Shown here one piece after another: positions 26,682 to 48,617 of a DNA stretch of 64,000 bases. A program made the translations under genes and the position numbers. A model generated the notes under the pieces. The model saw only the letters and a program-made list of their open reading frames with translations. It searched no databases and had not been told where the DNA came from. Numbering within the stretch: position 1 is the first letter of the stretch; each line of letters opens with the position of its first letter. Source of the DNA: an uncultured Ruminiclostridium sp. (GTDB lineage: Bacteria; Bacillota; Clostridia; Oscillospirales; Ruminococcaceae); NCBI GenBank assembly GCA_947629925.1, contig CANRFO010000007.1:62001-126000 (forward strand), read 5' to 3'.

Positions 26682-26688
26682 TTCGACA
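26682..26688 (-). promoter_or_regulatory. Candidate 0A box (distal)
   Basis: TTCGACA, the exact complement of the Spo0A-box consensus TGTCGAA, about 150 bases upstream of the spo0A -35. A 7-base match can occur by chance. Confidence 0.4.
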
Positions 26689-26837
26689 GACTGTTGCCTT
26701 CCTCTTCGTTTTTATGGCTGTTTTGCCGTTTTATAAGCTTATTATACATTTTTATCGTCGCTGCTTTTTCTTCCGACTCCTTTCTTTGCCTCTTAAAATC
26801 CACTTTCATTATTTTTTGTATTTTTTCAAAAAAACTC

Positions 26838-26866
26838 TTGTATTTTTCAATATATTATGCTATCAT
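26838..26866 (+). promoter_or_regulatory. SigmaA-type promoter of spo0A with adjacent 0A-like box
   Basis: TTGTAT and TATCAT are 17 bases apart. A TGCGACA (26872-26878), one mismatch from the 0A-box complement, follows the -10 by five bases, where a bound regulator would block initiation. Autoregulation is inferred. Confidence 0.6.
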
Positions 26867-26916
26867 CATATTGCGACATATTATCGTACATTATTCCCAT
26901 AAAAGGAGAGACATCT

Positions 26917-27714
26917 ATGAGCAGCTCTAAAGTTCTGATCGGAAACGATATCCCCGATCAGGGGATAGCATGGGCTAATATGCTGAAAACAGCAGGCGCC
27001 TTTGCAGTTACAAGAAAACCCAACGGTCTTACACTCCTTCAGTATGTGAAGGAATATTCCATGCCCGACATACTCATCATCGAGGCTAAAATGCCCGGTC
27101 TTGATTCTATTGGCTTGATAAGGGAGCTGAAAAAGCTTGGCGAGCTTCCGACGGTCATCATAACCGCCGATCACCCTATGCCCGTGCTGGAGGAAGAAGC
27201 CTTATATCTCGGAGCTTCAGCATTTATGGTAAAGCCTTTTGAACCCTCGGAGCTTATGAGAAGGATAGCGGAGTCCGACACACAGGACAGGAAAACATCA
27301 GACATAGACTTTGACAGATTTATAAAAGAACCGTCTCGTCAGCAGGACCTTGAATGTATAGTAACCGACATAATACACCAGATAGGCATACCTGCTCACA
27401 TCAAAGGCTATCACTTTTTAAGATACGCCATAATGCTGTGTGTTGAAAACAACGAGATGATAAACAGCATAACGAAACAGCTTTATCCTACTGTTGCGGC
27501 TGAATTCAGGACGACCTCCTCAAGAGTTGAGCGCGCGATAAGGCACGCGATAGAGCTTGCATGGGACAGAGGAGATGTAGACGTTCTTAACTCCTACTTC
27601 GGCTATACAATACGCAACACCAAGGGCAAGCCTACCAACTCCGAATTTATCGCTCTTATTTCGGACAAGCTCAGGCTTCAGATCAAAACAGGCGAAGTCG
27701 CTTTGAAAAGCTGA
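26917..27714 (+). CDS. spo0A: Sporulation master regulator Spo0A with altered receiver site
   Basis: 265 residues. The C-terminal DNA-binding domain is unmistakable Spo0A: IGIPAHIKGYHFLR, LYPTVAAEFRTTSSRVERAIRHAIELAW, KPTNSEFIALISDKLRL. The N-terminal receiver is unusual. At the phospho-acceptor position, Asp56 in B. subtilis, this protein has Glu56 (ILIIEAKMP in place of LVLDIIMP), and the acidic pair Asp10-Asp11 reads Asn10-Asp11. The switch Thr (VIITAD) and the Lys of MVKPF are kept. Phosphorylation by the usual relay may thus be lost or mimicked. Start ATG at 26917 behind AAAAGGAGAG. The gene is away from its usual place after recN and spoIVB. Identity is certain; the consequence is inferred. 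Confidence 0.95.
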   Translation: MSSSKVLIGNDIPDQGIAWANMLKTAGAFAVTRKPNGLTLLQYVKEYSMPDILIIEAKMPGLDSIGLIRELKKLGELPTVIITADHPMPVLEEEALYLGASAFMVKPFEPSELMRRIAESDTQDRKTSDIDFDRFIKEPSRQQDLECIVTDIIHQIGIPAHIKGYHFLRYAIMLCVENNEMINSITKQLYPTVAAEFRTTSSRVERAIRHAIELAWDRGDVDVLNSYFGYTIRNTKGKPTNSEFIALISDKLRLQIKTGEVALKS

Positions 27715-43996: not shown

Positions 43997-44854
43997 TTGA
44001 TAAACGCAAAAATATGCGGAAACGAAAGCGTGCTTTCATACTTAGGCACGATAGGCACAGTTATCGGGCGTTCAAAATACAGAATGTCCGATATATGTGA
44101 GATAAGACTGAGAGCAGGGCTTCCTGTCGTGCTTGAAACCGTTCGAGGAAGAGCCGTTCTGGAACGAAGACCGTCCCCTGACGAAATAAGCGAGTGCATA
44201 AAAAGCTTTTGTCATTATTCGCTCCACAGCTTCGAGCGTGAACTGAAAGAGGGCTATGTAACGCTGAAGGGAGGGCATAGGGCGGGCTTTTGCGGAAGCG
44301 CAGTGATAAAGAACGGCGAGCTTGAGACCATAAAAAACATAAGCAGCATAAATATTCGTATTGCCCGTGAGATAAAGGGCTGCGCCGAACAATTGAAAAA
44401 TATAGTGTTTTCTGAAAACTTCAGAGGGCTTCTCATAGCGGGGAAGCCCATGAGCGGCAAGACCACGGTCCTGCGGGATCTTTGCAGAATGATAGGAAAT
44501 GAGCATAAGCTCGCGGTCATAGACACAAGAAGCGAGATAGCCGCGTCACATGAAGGTGTATCCCGAAATGACGTGGGAATTTTTACCGATGTTCTCGACG
44601 GATACGGAAAGCAGGAGGGAATAGAGATAGCCACCCGCGTCCTGTCGCCTGAATATATCGCCTGCGACGAGCTTACAGGCGAAACAGAATATGCGGATCT
44701 GTGCCTTAACAGCGGCGTAAAAATTATTTTCACCGCTCATTGTGACGCTATGGAACAAGCGAAAAAACTGCCTGTTATTCAGACAGGAGCCGTAAGCGAC
44801 ATAGTGATGTTAGGCGGAAGAATGGGACAAGTAACGGAAAGGGCGGTGATTTGA
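43997..44854 (+). CDS. spoIIIAA: Stage III sporulation protein AA (ATPase)
   Basis: 285 residues; secretion-type ATPase made in the mother cell that powers the SpoIIIA-SpoIIQ channel to the forespore. Walker A is IAGKPMSGKTTVLRDL; the acidic Walker B is in YIACDELTG. The N-terminal part (EIRLRAGLPVVLE, LKGGHRAGFCG) is typical of this family. TTG start behind GAAGGAAGTGG. It heads the complete spoIIIAA-AH operon, with spoIIIAB starting immediately after its stop. Confidence 0.95.
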   Translation: MINAKICGNESVLSYLGTIGTVIGRSKYRMSDICEIRLRAGLPVVLETVRGRAVLERRPSPDEISECIKSFCHYSLHSFERELKEGYVTLKGGHRAGFCGSAVIKNGELETIKNISSINIRIAREIKGCAEQLKNIVFSENFRGLLIAGKPMSGKTTVLRDLCRMIGNEHKLAVIDTRSEIAASHEGVSRNDVGIFTDVLDGYGKQEGIEIATRVLSPEYIACDELTGETEYADLCLNSGVKIIFTAHCDAMEQAKKLPVIQTGAVSDIVMLGGRMGQVTERAVI

Positions 44855-45352
44855 ATGAATTTTATCGTTTCATTATCGGTTATCGTTTTCGGTACCGCCG
44901 CGGGTATTTTCTTTTCAAAAAGGCTGAAACAGCGCGAACAGATCATTTCTTCCGTTATGATGCTGATAAAGGAGTTTATTGTCCGCATAAGATATACCAA
45001 CGCGCAGATAGGCGATATCCTTCTGAGCGCTTCTCAGGACGAAGCCTACGGCGATTTGCTTTTTGTGACCGATTGTGCGTCGATACAGGAAAACGGCGAC
45101 TTTCATTCTCTTTGGAATAAAGGCGTTTCAAATCAGCAGTGCCTCACTGAAAGAGATAAAGAGCTGCTTATTATGCTCGGCGATAAACTGGGAGAAACTG
45201 ATGCCGACGGGCAGATAACTTTTCTGGAGATGATACTTGAAATGATGACGAAACAGCAGCAGGAGGCTTCCGAGAACTACCGTCAGAAAGGCAGGATGTA
45301 CCGTTCGGTGGGAGTTTTATGCGGACTTGCGGTAGGAATAATGATTTTATAG
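44855..45352 (+). CDS. spoIIIAB: Stage III sporulation protein AB
   Basis: 165 residues with an N-terminal membrane helix, a charged helical middle (SKRLKQREQIISSVMMLIKEF), and a C-terminal hydrophobic helix (GVLCGLAVGIMIL). It resembles type II/IV secretion inner-membrane proteins and is a mother-cell membrane part of the SpoIIIA complex. The ATG follows the spoIIIAA stop directly. Weak primary sequence conservation is normal for SpoIIIAB; position in the operon settles the call. Confidence 0.9.
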   Translation: MNFIVSLSVIVFGTAAGIFFSKRLKQREQIISSVMMLIKEFIVRIRYTNAQIGDILLSASQDEAYGDLLFVTDCASIQENGDFHSLWNKGVSNQQCLTERDKELLIMLGDKLGETDADGQITFLEMILEMMTKQQQEASENYRQKGRMYRSVGVLCGLAVGIMIL

Positions 45353-45361
45353 GAGTATGAC

Positions 45362-45559
45362 ATGGATGTGGATTTTATATTTCAGATCGCCGCGATCGGA
45401 ATAGTTGTTGCGGTCCTCAATATGCTCCTTCAGCGTTCGGGGCGCGAGGAACAGGCGATGATGACTACGATTGCAGGTCTTATCGTTGTGCTTATGATGA
45501 TAATTACGCAGATAAGCCAGCTTTTTGACACGATAAAGGAAGTGTTCAATCTATGGTGA
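45362..45559 (+). CDS. spoIIIAC: Stage III sporulation protein AC
   Basis: 65 residues with two membrane helices (about 7-23 and 34-51) joined by QRSGREEQAM, the usual signature loop of SpoIIIAC. A small mother-cell membrane component of the channel. ATG behind TAGGAG. SpoIIIAC and the next gene product SpoIIIAD are related, and AD begins seven bases later. Confidence 0.93.
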   Translation: MDVDFIFQIAAIGIVVAVLNMLLQRSGREEQAMMTTIAGLIVVLMMIITQISQLFDTIKEVFNLW

Positions 45560-45566
45560 GCGTGCC

Positions 45567-45956
45567 ATGAACATAACAATGATAGTTTCGGTCGCGCTGA
45601 TAGCCGCGATCCTTTCGATCATTCTCCGACAGTACAAGCCCGAATATTCGCTGTTCATATCCATAGCGGCGGGAATAATTATCCTGACGGCGGTAATTGC
45701 CATGATAGATCCGCTTATAGGATTCGTGACCAATATTACGGACGAAGCAGGTCTGAGCGGGATATATGCGCAGATACTCATAAAATCCCTTGCCGTATGC
45801 TATATTACGCAGCTCGCCTGCGACTGCTGCAAAGACGCGGGAGAAACGGCTATCGCGGGGAAAATACAATTGGCGGGAAAAATAGCGATACTGCTTATAG
45901 CACTCCCCATGTTTGAAGGATTGTCGGACATTGTGACCCGACTGATAAATATATAA
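45567..45956 (+). CDS. spoIIIAD: Stage III sporulation protein AD
   Basis: 129 residues; the first half repeats the SpoIIIAC pattern (two helices with ILRQYKPEYSLF between), then two further helices around IYAQILIKSLAVCYITQLACDCCKDAGE (read in pieces), which is the conserved SpoIIIAD core. Membrane component of the mother-cell complex. ATG with GGTGAGC upstream, inside the spoIIIAC end. Confidence 0.94.
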   Translation: MNITMIVSVALIAAILSIILRQYKPEYSLFISIAAGIIILTAVIAMIDPLIGFVTNITDEAGLSGIYAQILIKSLAVCYITQLACDCCKDAGETAIAGKIQLAGKIAILLIALPMFEGLSDIVTRLINI

Positions 45957-45979
45957 CGGACAGATCATAAAGAGGGAAT

Positions 45980-47092
45980 ATGAATATAAAAGGATTTTTA
46001 AAAATAACGGCGCTTTTTTCCGCAGCTTTTTTATTCTTGTCAGCCGAAGTGCAGGCCGAGGATACATACGATTTCGGGCAAAGCGGCATATATGAAGCTT
46101 TGCCTGACGAAGCGGAGGAAATGCTCGGTCAGCTTGACATAACTGCTGAAAACGGCGGCTCCGAACTGAGCGCGGAAAATCTTCTTGAAACGGTATGGAA
46201 CGTTCTGGCGGGAAGTATTTCAAAGCCTGTCACAATGCTTGCTTCAATAGCCGCCGTTATAATCCTGTGTTCAGTGATCGAAGCGATGAACGATGGGAGC
46301 AGCACTCTTACAGGAACATTCGGCACGGTAGGTATCCTTGCCTGCTCAGGGATAATATGCGTCAGCTTTTCAGCTGTTCTGGAAAGCGCAAAGACCGCAA
46401 TAGAAGGCTTTTCGTCTTTTCTTGCCGTTTTTATCCCCACATTGGCAGGAATAATGGCGGCGAGCGGACAAACATCTTCCGCGGCTTTATATAACGGCAC
46501 TGTCGTTGCAGCGACTCAGCTTTTTTCACAGATAGTTTCCGCAGTTATTTTTCCACTGACGTCATGTATCATGGGAATTTCCGTGGCGGGTTCGGTAGAC
46601 CCCGACATAAAGATCAACAATATTGCGGAAACGGTGAAGAAACTGGTAAACTGGGGATTGGGACTGCTTGCGACCATATTTACAGGTCTTGTTTCAATAC
46701 AGGGCTTTGTAAGCGCCTCCGCGGATTCCGTTGCCATGAAAGCCGTGAAGTTTACATTTTCAGGCTCAGTGCCGATAGTTGGCGGAGCCGTTTCAGATGC
46801 GCTGTCCACCGTAAAGAGCAGTATGGAGCTTATAAAAAGCACCACAGGAAGCTTCGGCATACTTGCACTGTCGATATACGCGCTTCCTTTGCTCGTTTCA
46901 CTTTTGCTGTTCCGTGCGGCAATGCTCGTTTCAGCCTCATTAAGCGACGTTTTCGGAACTTCGAGGCTGACGCCGCTGCTTAAAAGCGGCGAAAATGCTG
47001 TTGCTATAATAACAGCGGCAGTTATGTTTTATCTGCTGGTTGCCGTGGTTTCCACCGCGCTTATCCTTGCAATAAGCGGAGGTGCGTCATGA
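45980..47092 (+). CDS. spoIIIAE: Stage III sporulation protein AE
   Basis: 370 residues with a signal peptide (cut after VQA), then a short exported region and about seven hydrophobic segments; typical blocks are FIPTLAGIMAASGQTSSAALYNG and GAVSDALSTVKSSMELIKSTTG (read in pieces). It is the polytopic core of the mother-cell SpoIIIA complex. ATG behind AGAGGGAA. The stop overlaps the spoIIIAF start by 4 bases (ATGA). Confidence 0.94.
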   Translation: MNIKGFLKITALFSAAFLFLSAEVQAEDTYDFGQSGIYEALPDEAEEMLGQLDITAENGGSELSAENLLETVWNVLAGSISKPVTMLASIAAVIILCSVIEAMNDGSSTLTGTFGTVGILACSGIICVSFSAVLESAKTAIEGFSSFLAVFIPTLAGIMAASGQTSSAALYNGTVVAATQLFSQIVSAVIFPLTSCIMGISVAGSVDPDIKINNIAETVKKLVNWGLGLLATIFTGLVSIQGFVSASADSVAMKAVKFTFSGSVPIVGGAVSDALSTVKSSMELIKSTTGSFGILALSIYALPLLVSLLLFRAAMLVSASLSDVFGTSRLTPLLKSGENAVAIITAAVMFYLLVAVVSTALILAISGGAS

Positions 47093-47559
47093 AGGAAGCT
47101 TTGCTCGGTATCGCGCTTACCGCAGTTGCAACGGGAGTTTTCAAGCTTCTTATCCCCGACAGCAGCTTCAAAAAGCAGATCGCTTTTCTTACGGCGTGTT
47201 TTTTCGTCCTCAGCATAGCTTCTTTTTTTACCGAAGCGGTTGATCTGAGCGACATATCCTTGTCTTTGAGCGATAAAGGAGCGTATGTGGATTTTTCAGT
47301 TGAAGCCTATCGCCTCACACAGACGGAAATAGCCGCCAAAATGTCTGAAGAGCTGAAAGCGGAGCTTGAAAAAAATAATATTTCGGTAGATGAAATTTAT
47401 ATTATCATTGATATTTCGTCATCTTACAGCATATCTATTAAGCAGGTACGGCTTGCCTTTTCCGCAAAAAATGCCTCTTATGCGTCTGCAGCTGAAGAAT
47501 TAGTAAAAAAGGAGGTCGGGGATGAAATAGAGATAGTTACGGAAATAAAGGGAAGATGA
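47089..47559 (+). CDS. spoIIIAF: Stage III sporulation protein AF
   Basis: 156 residues: two N-terminal membrane helices (about 3-20 and 30-46, the second with FLTACFFVLSIASFF), then a soluble domain of about 100 residues with a ring-building-type alternation of helices and strands. Membrane component of the feeding-tube complex. It overlaps spoIIIAE by 4 bases, showing tight coupling. Assigned from operon position and helix pattern. Confidence 0.92.
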   Translation: MKEALLGIALTAVATGVFKLLIPDSSFKKQIAFLTACFFVLSIASFFTEAVDLSDISLSLSDKGAYVDFSVEAYRLTQTEIAAKMSEELKAELEKNNISVDEIYIIIDISSSYSISIKQVRLAFSAKNASYASAAEELVKKEVGDEIEIVTEIKGR

Positions 47560-47570
47560 AAGGATAGAAG

Positions 47571-48005
47571 ATGAAAAAACCGTCAGAATTGTTAAAAAGC
47601 GAAAAAGGAACAAAGATTATTTTTGCTGTCGGTATCGTTCTTATCGCGCTGATATTTTTATTCAGCATGACCGACAAGGGAACCAAAGCGCCTGTATCCG
47701 AGGAAAAAGACAGCGTGCTTTCGCAGGTGGATGAATATGAGCGGCGATTGGAAGAAAGACTCGCAAAAATAATAGGCTCGATACAGGGAACAGGCGATAT
47801 AAAAGTGATGATAACGCTTGAAAGGACCGAAGAAAACATATATTCTGACAGGGAAACTTCCGTTGCCGCCACAGTGACCCCTACCGTAAGAGGCGCTGTG
47901 GTCGTATGCCGAGGCAGTGAAAACGCTTCGGTAAGGCAGAAAATAGTAGATGCAGTATGCAAGGCGTTGGGGATAAGCGCCGCAAGAGTTTGTGTAACAT
48001 ATTAA
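47571..48005 (+). CDS. spoIIIAG: Stage III sporulation protein AG, compact form
   Basis: 144 residues: one N-terminal membrane helix (about 18-35), a charged linker, and a ring-building domain of the YscJ/FliF kind (LAKIIGSIQGTGDIKVMITLE and GAVVVCRGSENASVRQKIVDAVCKALG, read in pieces). In B. subtilis SpoIIIAG (229 residues) forms a large ring; here the protein is clearly shorter, lacking most of the insertion that forms the extra beta-barrel. ATG behind GAAAGGATAG. Confidence 0.92.
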   Translation: MKKPSELLKSEKGTKIIFAVGIVLIALIFLFSMTDKGTKAPVSEEKDSVLSQVDEYERRLEERLAKIIGSIQGTGDIKVMITLERTEENIYSDRETSVAATVTPTVRGAVVVCRGSENASVRQKIVDAVCKALGISAARVCVTY

Positions 48006-48026
48006 ACTTGAAAGGGAGTTTATATT

Positions 48027-48617
48027 ATGAAAAGAAGAAGGATAAACCTTATAATCGGGAAAAAGCAAATAATAATCGTAGGTCTGACACTTATTTTGGG
48101 CGTAGCGATCTATGTGAATTATCTGGTCGGCACAAAAATGAGTACAGGATCGCCTGTTTCGGCTTATGACAGCGAGGCTCAGAGCGCGGGCGTTTACGGC
48201 GAACAGCAGTTCGTTTCCGACAACGATCAGGGAAGCTCCGATTCTCAGGTACCGCTTTCCGACAGTTCCGACGAATATTTCGCTCAGGCAAGGCTTGATA
48301 AAGAAGAAAGCCGTGCTGAAGCCGTTGAGGTCCTTCAGAGCATTTACAGCGGCGGTGACGCGACAGACACGGAGCTTGCTGTTTTTGCACGGGACGCTGC
48401 GGCGATAAGCGGATACATAGAGAGCGAGAGCAAGATCGAAAATGTGCTTAAAGCTCAGGGCTTTGAAGATGTTCTTTGCTATCTGTCTGACAGCGGCGCG
48501 AGCATAATAGTAAAGACCGACGGGCTTGACACCGCTCAGGCGGCACAGATAAAGAACGCCCTTTTGTCCGAAGTAAATGTGCCTGCTGAAAAAATAACAA
48601 TTCTTGAGATAAAATAG
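48027..48617 (+). CDS. spoIIIAH: Stage III sporulation protein AH
   Basis: 196 residues: one N-terminal span (about 11-32), a Ser/Asp-rich linker, and the ring-building domain (RAEAVEVLQSIYS to the C-terminus), which contacts the forespore protein SpoIIQ. ATG behind AAAGGGAG. It ends the operon, and no further spoIII gene follows. A promoter for the next genes and a long inverted repeat begin at or just after its stop. Confidence 0.94.
   Translation: MKRRRINLIIGKKQIIIVGLTLILGVAIYVNYLVGTKMSTGSPVSAYDSEAQSAGVYGEQQFVSDNDQGSSDSQVPLSDSSDEYFAQARLDKEESRAEAVEVLQSIYSGGDATDTELAVFARDAAAISGYIESESKIENVLKAQGFEDVLCYLSDSGASIIVKTDGLDTAQAAQIKNALLSEVNVPAEKITILEIK

Follow-up and report, generated by a model that had tools for sequence, protein, structure and literature searches.

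The spo0A gene and its receiver

The window that we analysed, a 64,000-nucleotide stretch of one contig from an uncultured Ruminiclostridium sp., carries at 26917..27714 on the plus strand the first of two spo0A copies in this genome, encoding a protein of 265 aa that we identified from its translation and from family profiles. The protein scores 234 bits against NCBIfam TIGR02875 (cut-off 200), which places it in the Spo0A family. Pfam finds both expected domains, Response_reg (53 bits) and Spo0A_C (152 bits). The receiver, delimited by Pfam and an AlphaFold model, spans residues 6-117 (26932..27267, plus strand), and the DNA-binding domain, residues 149-252 (27361..27672, plus strand), matches its profile over the full length (1-104 of 104). 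The top PDB matches of the DNA-binding domain are solved Spo0A domains with 57-60% identity in the aligned part, and receiver structures are also among the PDB matches of the protein. The initial annotation, made from the sequence alone, had described the DNA-binding half as a standard Spo0A, and the complete Spo0A_C domain and the TIGR02875 score agree with this.

We aligned the focal protein with 130 other Spo0A rows, plus 61 Spo0A from other families of the class, and located the five catalytic positions of the receiver from the translation and this alignment (all on the plus strand). The phospho-acceptor position is Glu56 (GAG, 27082..27084). In the acidic pair (26944..26949) the first residue is changed to Asn10 (AAC, 26944-26946) while the second acid, Asp11, is intact. 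Both substitutions had been pointed out before and are borne out by the translation; a third had been overlooked, namely Ala84 (27166..27168) at the switch position, which is Ser or Thr in 60/61 class controls. The adjoining Thr83 aligns with a column of a hydrophobic residue. The conserved lysine, Lys106 (27232..27234), is kept. Three of the five catalytic positions (10, 56 and 84) are thus altered, with Asp11 and Lys106 retained.

The focal protein therefore falls outside the phospho-activated response regulators, which have an acceptor Asp together with the acidic pair, Ser/Thr and Lys, and the presence of a receiver domain excludes it from the phage-type receiver-less class. In the AlphaFold model the receiver is a (beta-alpha)5 fold of five alternating strands and helices with a pLDDT of about 95, and Glu56 lies at the end of strand 3. 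With the acceptor Asp among the missing catalytic residues and the receiver fold kept by prediction, the receiver is, on its sequence, an aspartate-less pseudo-receiver by the definitions given in PMC12632262, where the absence of any of the five residues suffices.

The initial annotation had allowed that relatives with Asp at position 56, together with a sequencing error here, might account for the unusual acceptor. Relatives with Asp56 do occur (18/57 genus rows); a sequencing error at the focal Glu56 is very unlikely because an identical protein comes from a second contig and because Glu56 is found in 34/57 Spo0A of the genus.

A second spo0A copy in the same genome

The genome (99.75% complete, 44 contigs) contains a second spo0A copy encoding the identical protein on another contig (G000:C4:7460-8254; L009:7457-8314). 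A search of the 44 contigs at E 0.001 returned these two Spo0A matches, six weaker response-regulator matches and no third Spo0A. The neighbours of the second copy differ from those of the first and, as far as ORFs can be named by eye, are a metallo-hydrolase-like ORF, a tRNA-Pro and a long pyruvate oxidoreductase-like ORF. The block common to both copies is 1168 bp long with 15 mismatches, 13 of them upstream and two downstream, at the gene end, of a 930-bp tract that is identical between the copies (26760..27689, plus strand; from 157 bp upstream of the gene to codon 258). Since the mismatches lie only outside the identical run, the sequence has the pattern of gene conversion or of recent homogenisation of the duplicates. 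The nearest relatives (G067 and G068, 86% identity) have a single spo0A copy each.

In relatives from the focal clade (L041, L046, L122), spoIVB is located directly upstream of spo0A (TIGR02860 above cut-off), and it is beside neither copy in the focal genome. We take spoIVB-spo0A to be the canonical gene order, so the gene of this clade is probably the orthologue and not a stray paralogue.

Position 56 across the genus

Spo0A matches at 1e-20 were found in 56/71 genus genomes and in 40/41 of the good ones. G046 is 98% complete and has SpoIIE and SASP matches, yet has no Spo0A match at this threshold. After removing duplicates, fragments and long-branch paralogues, including the second-type copies of G036, G038, G065 and G066 and the second copy of the focal genome, 57 rows from 54 genomes remained. 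Position 56 is Glu in 34 of these rows and Asp in 18, and the acceptor loop is deleted in the remaining 5; across the genus the residue alternates between Asp and Glu, and one clade lacks the loop. All five catalytic residues are intact in only 1/57 rows (G029), or in 2/61 when the dropped paralogues are counted, which adds a second copy from G038. That genome has both a Glu56 main copy and a divergent second copy with all five residues (L146 and L021).

Whether Glu56 and Asn10 are a clade trait had been left as a check on the initial annotation, and the alignment of relatives shows that they are. Two members of the Asn10 clade carry Asp56 yet still lack the other two residues, and the switch Ser/Thr is gone in 17/34 Glu56 proteins of the genus, including the focal one. 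Sister clades (L122, L131 in G001 and G032; L025, L031, L028) have Asp56 but Arg106 instead of the conserved Lys, and are therefore pseudo-receivers by another route. The pairing of positions 56 and 106 across the genus is 33 E-K, 15 D-R, 3 D-K, 1 E-M and no E-R. Such covariation would be consistent with a salt bridge whose length is maintained, but we set it aside as evidence because only 3-4 changes underlie the pairing and a test on independent pairs cannot reach significance.

We also observed receiver-less ORFs consisting of Spo0A_C only (L151:2407-2857, L149, L150, L152, L154:2019-2564) in G062, G063, G003 and G064. The one in G062 sits, by eye, behind holin- and endolysin-like ORFs, and these ORFs resemble the phage spo0A described in PMC10294663.

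Acceptor loss across the family

TIGR02875 matched 192/198 family genomes. Outside the genus we sampled 101 rows, taken as best matches, from 89 other genera, having dropped five rows that were fragments or second copies (one Asn56, in G103, and four Asp56). Position 56 in the 101 rows is Asp in 74, Glu in 17, Asn in 5, Ser in 3, Cys in 1 and His in 1, and a non-Asp row is present in 26 of the 89 genera. As a class control we used 61 Spo0A on 60 hand-chosen stretches spread over other families, from the 94 genomes that matched at 1e-45 among 118 searched. Asp56 is present in 56/61 of these controls, so that the acceptor is lost in 5/61 versus 27/101 in the family, and all five catalytic residues are found in 45/61 controls, 39/101 family rows outside the genus and 1/57 genus rows. 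Fisher tests of family against class give p 0.004 for the presence of Asp56 and 2e-5 for that of all five residues, values that are rough because the sequences are related, and the family set admitted weaker matches than the control set.

On a 225-row tree built without the active-site columns, Asp versus non-Asp needs at least 33 changes, an approximate count given that the tree is a quick one with many weak forks. Most non-Asp genomes are represented by one Spo0A, and both G132 and G170 have a further copy that carries Asp. Judged from these sequences, acceptor loss is recurrent across the family.

Spo0A without the acceptor was also seen outside the family, in G305 and G272 (L302, L301), G276 (L306), G267 (L289) and G269 (L293), where position 56 is Ser, Ala, Glu, Glu and Asn, respectively. 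Another Oscillospiraceae lineage (L097, L069, L060, L094) has Ser or Gly at position 56 together with a Glu-Glu acidic pair.

Selection on the receiver

The receiver is under purifying selection. Nei-Gojobori dN/dS for pairs without synonymous saturation is 0.014-0.163 in the receiver and 0.007-0.046 in the DNA-binding half, with the receiver changing faster in 12 of the 13 pairs that allowed both values to be calculated. Gly9, Gly16, Trp19, Ala20, Arg33 and Glu94 are identical in 57/57 genus rows, the loop-deleted ones included, unlike positions 10, 56, 84 and 106, which vary. Trp19 (helix 1; 26971..26973, plus strand) is found in only 2/101 family rows outside the genus. Of the six invariant positions, four map to helix 1 and to the end of strand 2. 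For pseudo-receivers, PMC12632262 describes a network on the helix1-strand2-helix2 surface, near which several of them bind ligands.

Sporulation genes kept or lost

The initial annotation had stated that a full spoIIIA operon and spoVM are kept. The operon, spoIIIAA-spoIIIAH, reads as complete, with eight ORFs at 43997..48617 on the plus strand whose names we assign from their order and length and from the usual make-up of the operon. The claim for spoVM was not confirmed, as one simple motif for SpoVM gave no match in the 64-kb window.

Elsewhere in the focal genome SASP is present, and SigE, SigG and SigK are above their NCBIfam cut-offs. SpoIIE has Pfam SpoIIE and SpoIIE_N matches above cut-off; its TIGR02865 match has an E-value of 1.7e-76 but is below cut-off, as is the case in all 71 genus genomes. 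The genes spoIIAA-spoIIAB-sigF are in one operon order, with SpoIIAB above its cut-off and SpoIIAA and SigF below theirs, and in spoIIGA-sigE-sigG the SpoIIGA is partial, cut by the end of the stretch.

Among genus genomes that are at least 90% complete, SASP and SpoIIE are found in 19/22 and 20/22 of those with Glu56, in 12/14 and 13/14 of those with Asp56, and in 5/5 and 5/5 of those with the deleted loop; both are missing in the genus genomes G007 and G042. Across the family, SASP is present in 21/28 non-Asp versus 44/52 Asp genomes (p 0.37), and SpoIIE at 1e-30 in 23/28 versus 51/52 (p 0.018). The acceptor-less family genomes without SASP (7/28) or SpoIIE (5/28) include the very small G118 and G132. 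Acceptor loss showed no association with sporulation loss as judged by SASP and a weak one as judged by SpoIIE, where some of the genomes lacking the gene are small. Given the retention of SASP and SpoIIE in both genus and family, sporulation genes are mostly not lost along with the acceptor, apart from the weak SpoIIE signal.

0A boxes upstream of spo0A

A motif search found TGTCGAA, which we take to be the core of the 0A box, on the minus strand at 26682..26688, some 230 bp ahead of the start codon, and a box is also present upstream of the second copy. This motif is within 350 nt upstream of 42/60 genus loci (two genomes counted twice), versus 150/2501 random stretches (6%). Without repeats and paralogues it precedes 40/56 genus spo0A genes, comprising 23/33 with Glu56, 16/18 with Asp56 and 1/5 with the deleted loop, and several genus genes have two boxes 10 bp apart. 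In the focal genome, neither spoIIA nor spoIIE is preceded by a strict 0A box.

Histidine kinases in the genome

The 12 HisKA matches in the focal genome comprise six hybrids and six kinases next to a response regulator, and three stand-alone hybrid kinases are located on contigs C1, C9 and C10. Of the 23 HATPase matches, 12 are these HisKA kinases and four are GHKL kinases with a response regulator as neighbour; the other seven are SpoIIAB, gyrase B, a pair of small ATPases and three frames of 648-665 aa. A search for Kin homologues had been suggested as a check on whether Spo0A was cut loose from the kinase relay; our surveys did find kinases, and the three stand-alone hybrids could still feed Spo0A. 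We also noted in this genome a 231-aa protein (L396:1712-2407) that combines a helical domain of the Spo0B type (SPOB_a, 3e-8) with a GHKL ATPase and is encoded beside a response regulator.

An orphan kinase was reported in 47/48 spore-formers in PMC6136694. In G158, our sole control genome with an intact Spo0A, 11/18 HATPase matches belong to kinases with an adjacent response regulator and five are other ATPases; one more is a HisKA kinase of 605 aa with no regulator on the downstream side, the side viewed. Because only one side of this control kinase was viewed, we claim no causal link between loss of orphan kinases and loss of the acceptor, and regard it as a lead.

How Spo0A may work without the acceptor

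The focal protein is probably the true Spo0A of this organism, now an aspartate-less pseudo-receiver that works without aspartyl phosphorylation and whose activity is set by its amount and/or by a partner or ligand. Phosphorylation at position 56 is chemically improbable and would not be what activates the protein; unmodified Spo0A would dimerise and bind 0A boxes, and a partner or ligand might contact a rebuilt helix1-strand2 face made up of Gly9, Gly16, Trp19, Ala20 and Arg33, and also Glu94. Feedback would be possible through the 0A box in the spo0A promoter, and the two gene copies would raise the dose. The uncoupling from phosphorylation with sporulation genes kept, as first proposed, fits the clade trait of Glu56 and Asn10, Ala84, the recurrent acceptor loss and the downstream genes; the part concerning spoVM stays unconfirmed. 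Counting for this reading are the catalytic losses, the loop deletion with SASP and SpoIIE kept, the purifying selection and invariant residues, the boxes at 40/56 genes, spoIVB upstream in relatives, and the fact that all HisKA kinases of the genome are hybrid or paired. Counting against it are the lack of a box at its own spoIIA and spoIIE, a box at only 1/5 loop-deleted genes, the faster change of the receiver (12/13 pairs), the misses of SpoIIE (5/28 vs 1/52) and the three stand-alone hybrids. A broader claim, plausible but tentative, is that by repeated independent loss across the family, and throughout the genus, Spo0A has left phosphate control to become a pseudo-receiver that reads a ligand or partner through the Trp19/Arg33 face, with spores formed without Spo0A~P.

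The initial annotation had also raised Glu56 as a phosphate mimic, which the analysis does not establish. A plain mimic, with Spo0A locked on, only its transcription regulated and no ligand or partner involved, would account for Glu being the commonest replacement (17/27 acceptor losses elsewhere in the family), and Glu, which can mimic phosphate, is also given as the commonest substitute in aspartate-less receivers (PMC12632262, PMC4395418). However, half of the genus's Glu56 proteins (17/34), among them the focal one, have also lost the phosphate-reading Ser/Thr, Asn, Ser, Cys or His replace the acceptor in 10/101 family rows, one clade has deleted the loop, and PMC4395418 notes that Asp-to-Glu alone is often insufficient, naming Spo0A. 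A plain mimic is hence unlikely, being ill-suited to the loss of Ser/Thr in half of the Glu56 proteins and to the deletion clade.

Continued phosphorylation of Spo0A, whether on Glu56, on Asp11 or elsewhere in the protein and for instance by a stand-alone hybrid kinase, is very unlikely: Asp11, Lys106 and three such kinases remain, and a hybrid is among the candidate sporulation kinases of another species (PMC11210211), but the Ser/Thr and one metal-binding acid are gone, the loop deletion in relatives leaves no site there, and the discussion of Glu phosphorylation in PMC4395418 gives no known example in bacterial signalling. We consider it rather improbable that these lineages are losing sporulation and that the receiver drifts under relaxed selection, as similar SASP retention (21/28 vs 44/52, p 0.37), purifying selection on the receiver, its six invariant positions and the presence of sigma cascade genes all speak against decay, even though SASP or SpoIIE is missing in 7 and 5 of 28 acceptor-less genomes, among them the very small G118 and G132, and both are absent from G007 and G042.

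Comparison with known systems

In the standard teaching, endospore formation is triggered universally by Spo0A~P. In the focal bacterium, spore formation may be started in some other way than by attachment of phosphate, and if many gut Clostridia start spores with a Spo0A that cannot be phosphorylated, kinase-centred models will fail to carry over to them. Studies of metagenome-assembled genomes have read spore-forming ability from whether spo0A is present (PMC8340488, PMC11536998). How receivers leave phosphate control without losing their role is described as the main open question on pseudo-receivers in PMC12632262, and the repeated switches seen here would offer a natural experiment on it.

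The focal protein resembles Spo0A of Bacillus and Clostridia (TIGR02875) in its two-domain layout, its DNA-binding domain, the spoIVB-spo0A order in relatives and the 0A box in the promoter, but differs in having no acceptor Asp, an Asn in the acidic pair and an Ala at the switch, and possibly in an organism without a dedicated plain kinase. It resembles aspartate-less receivers, or atypical response regulators (PMC4395418, PMC12632262), in having Glu for the acceptor and a retained fold. The common substitutions given in PMC12632262 include its Asp to Glu and Ser/Thr to Ala changes, and Lys to Arg as in the sister clades. Pseudo-receivers are thus already known, and we found none described for Spo0A: our search of the open-access literature, with subscription papers mostly outside its scope, returned no description of a full-length Spo0A without the acceptor Asp, and the aspartate-less receivers covered in PMC4395418 and PMC12632262 (RitR, ChxR, FrzS, FruA and others) are not Spo0A.

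The Spo0A of gut phages (PMC10294663) would share with the focal protein its freedom from phosphate control, but the phage protein drops the receiver and the focal one keeps it. BldM and WhiI of Streptomyces and FruA of Myxococcus (PMC12632262 for FruA) are likewise described as developmental regulators whose receivers work without the usual phosphorylation, although their output domains and lineages are unrelated to those of the focal Spo0A. What sets the present case apart from the described pseudo-receivers is that here a developmental master regulator that is normally phospho-dependent appears to have made the change many times.
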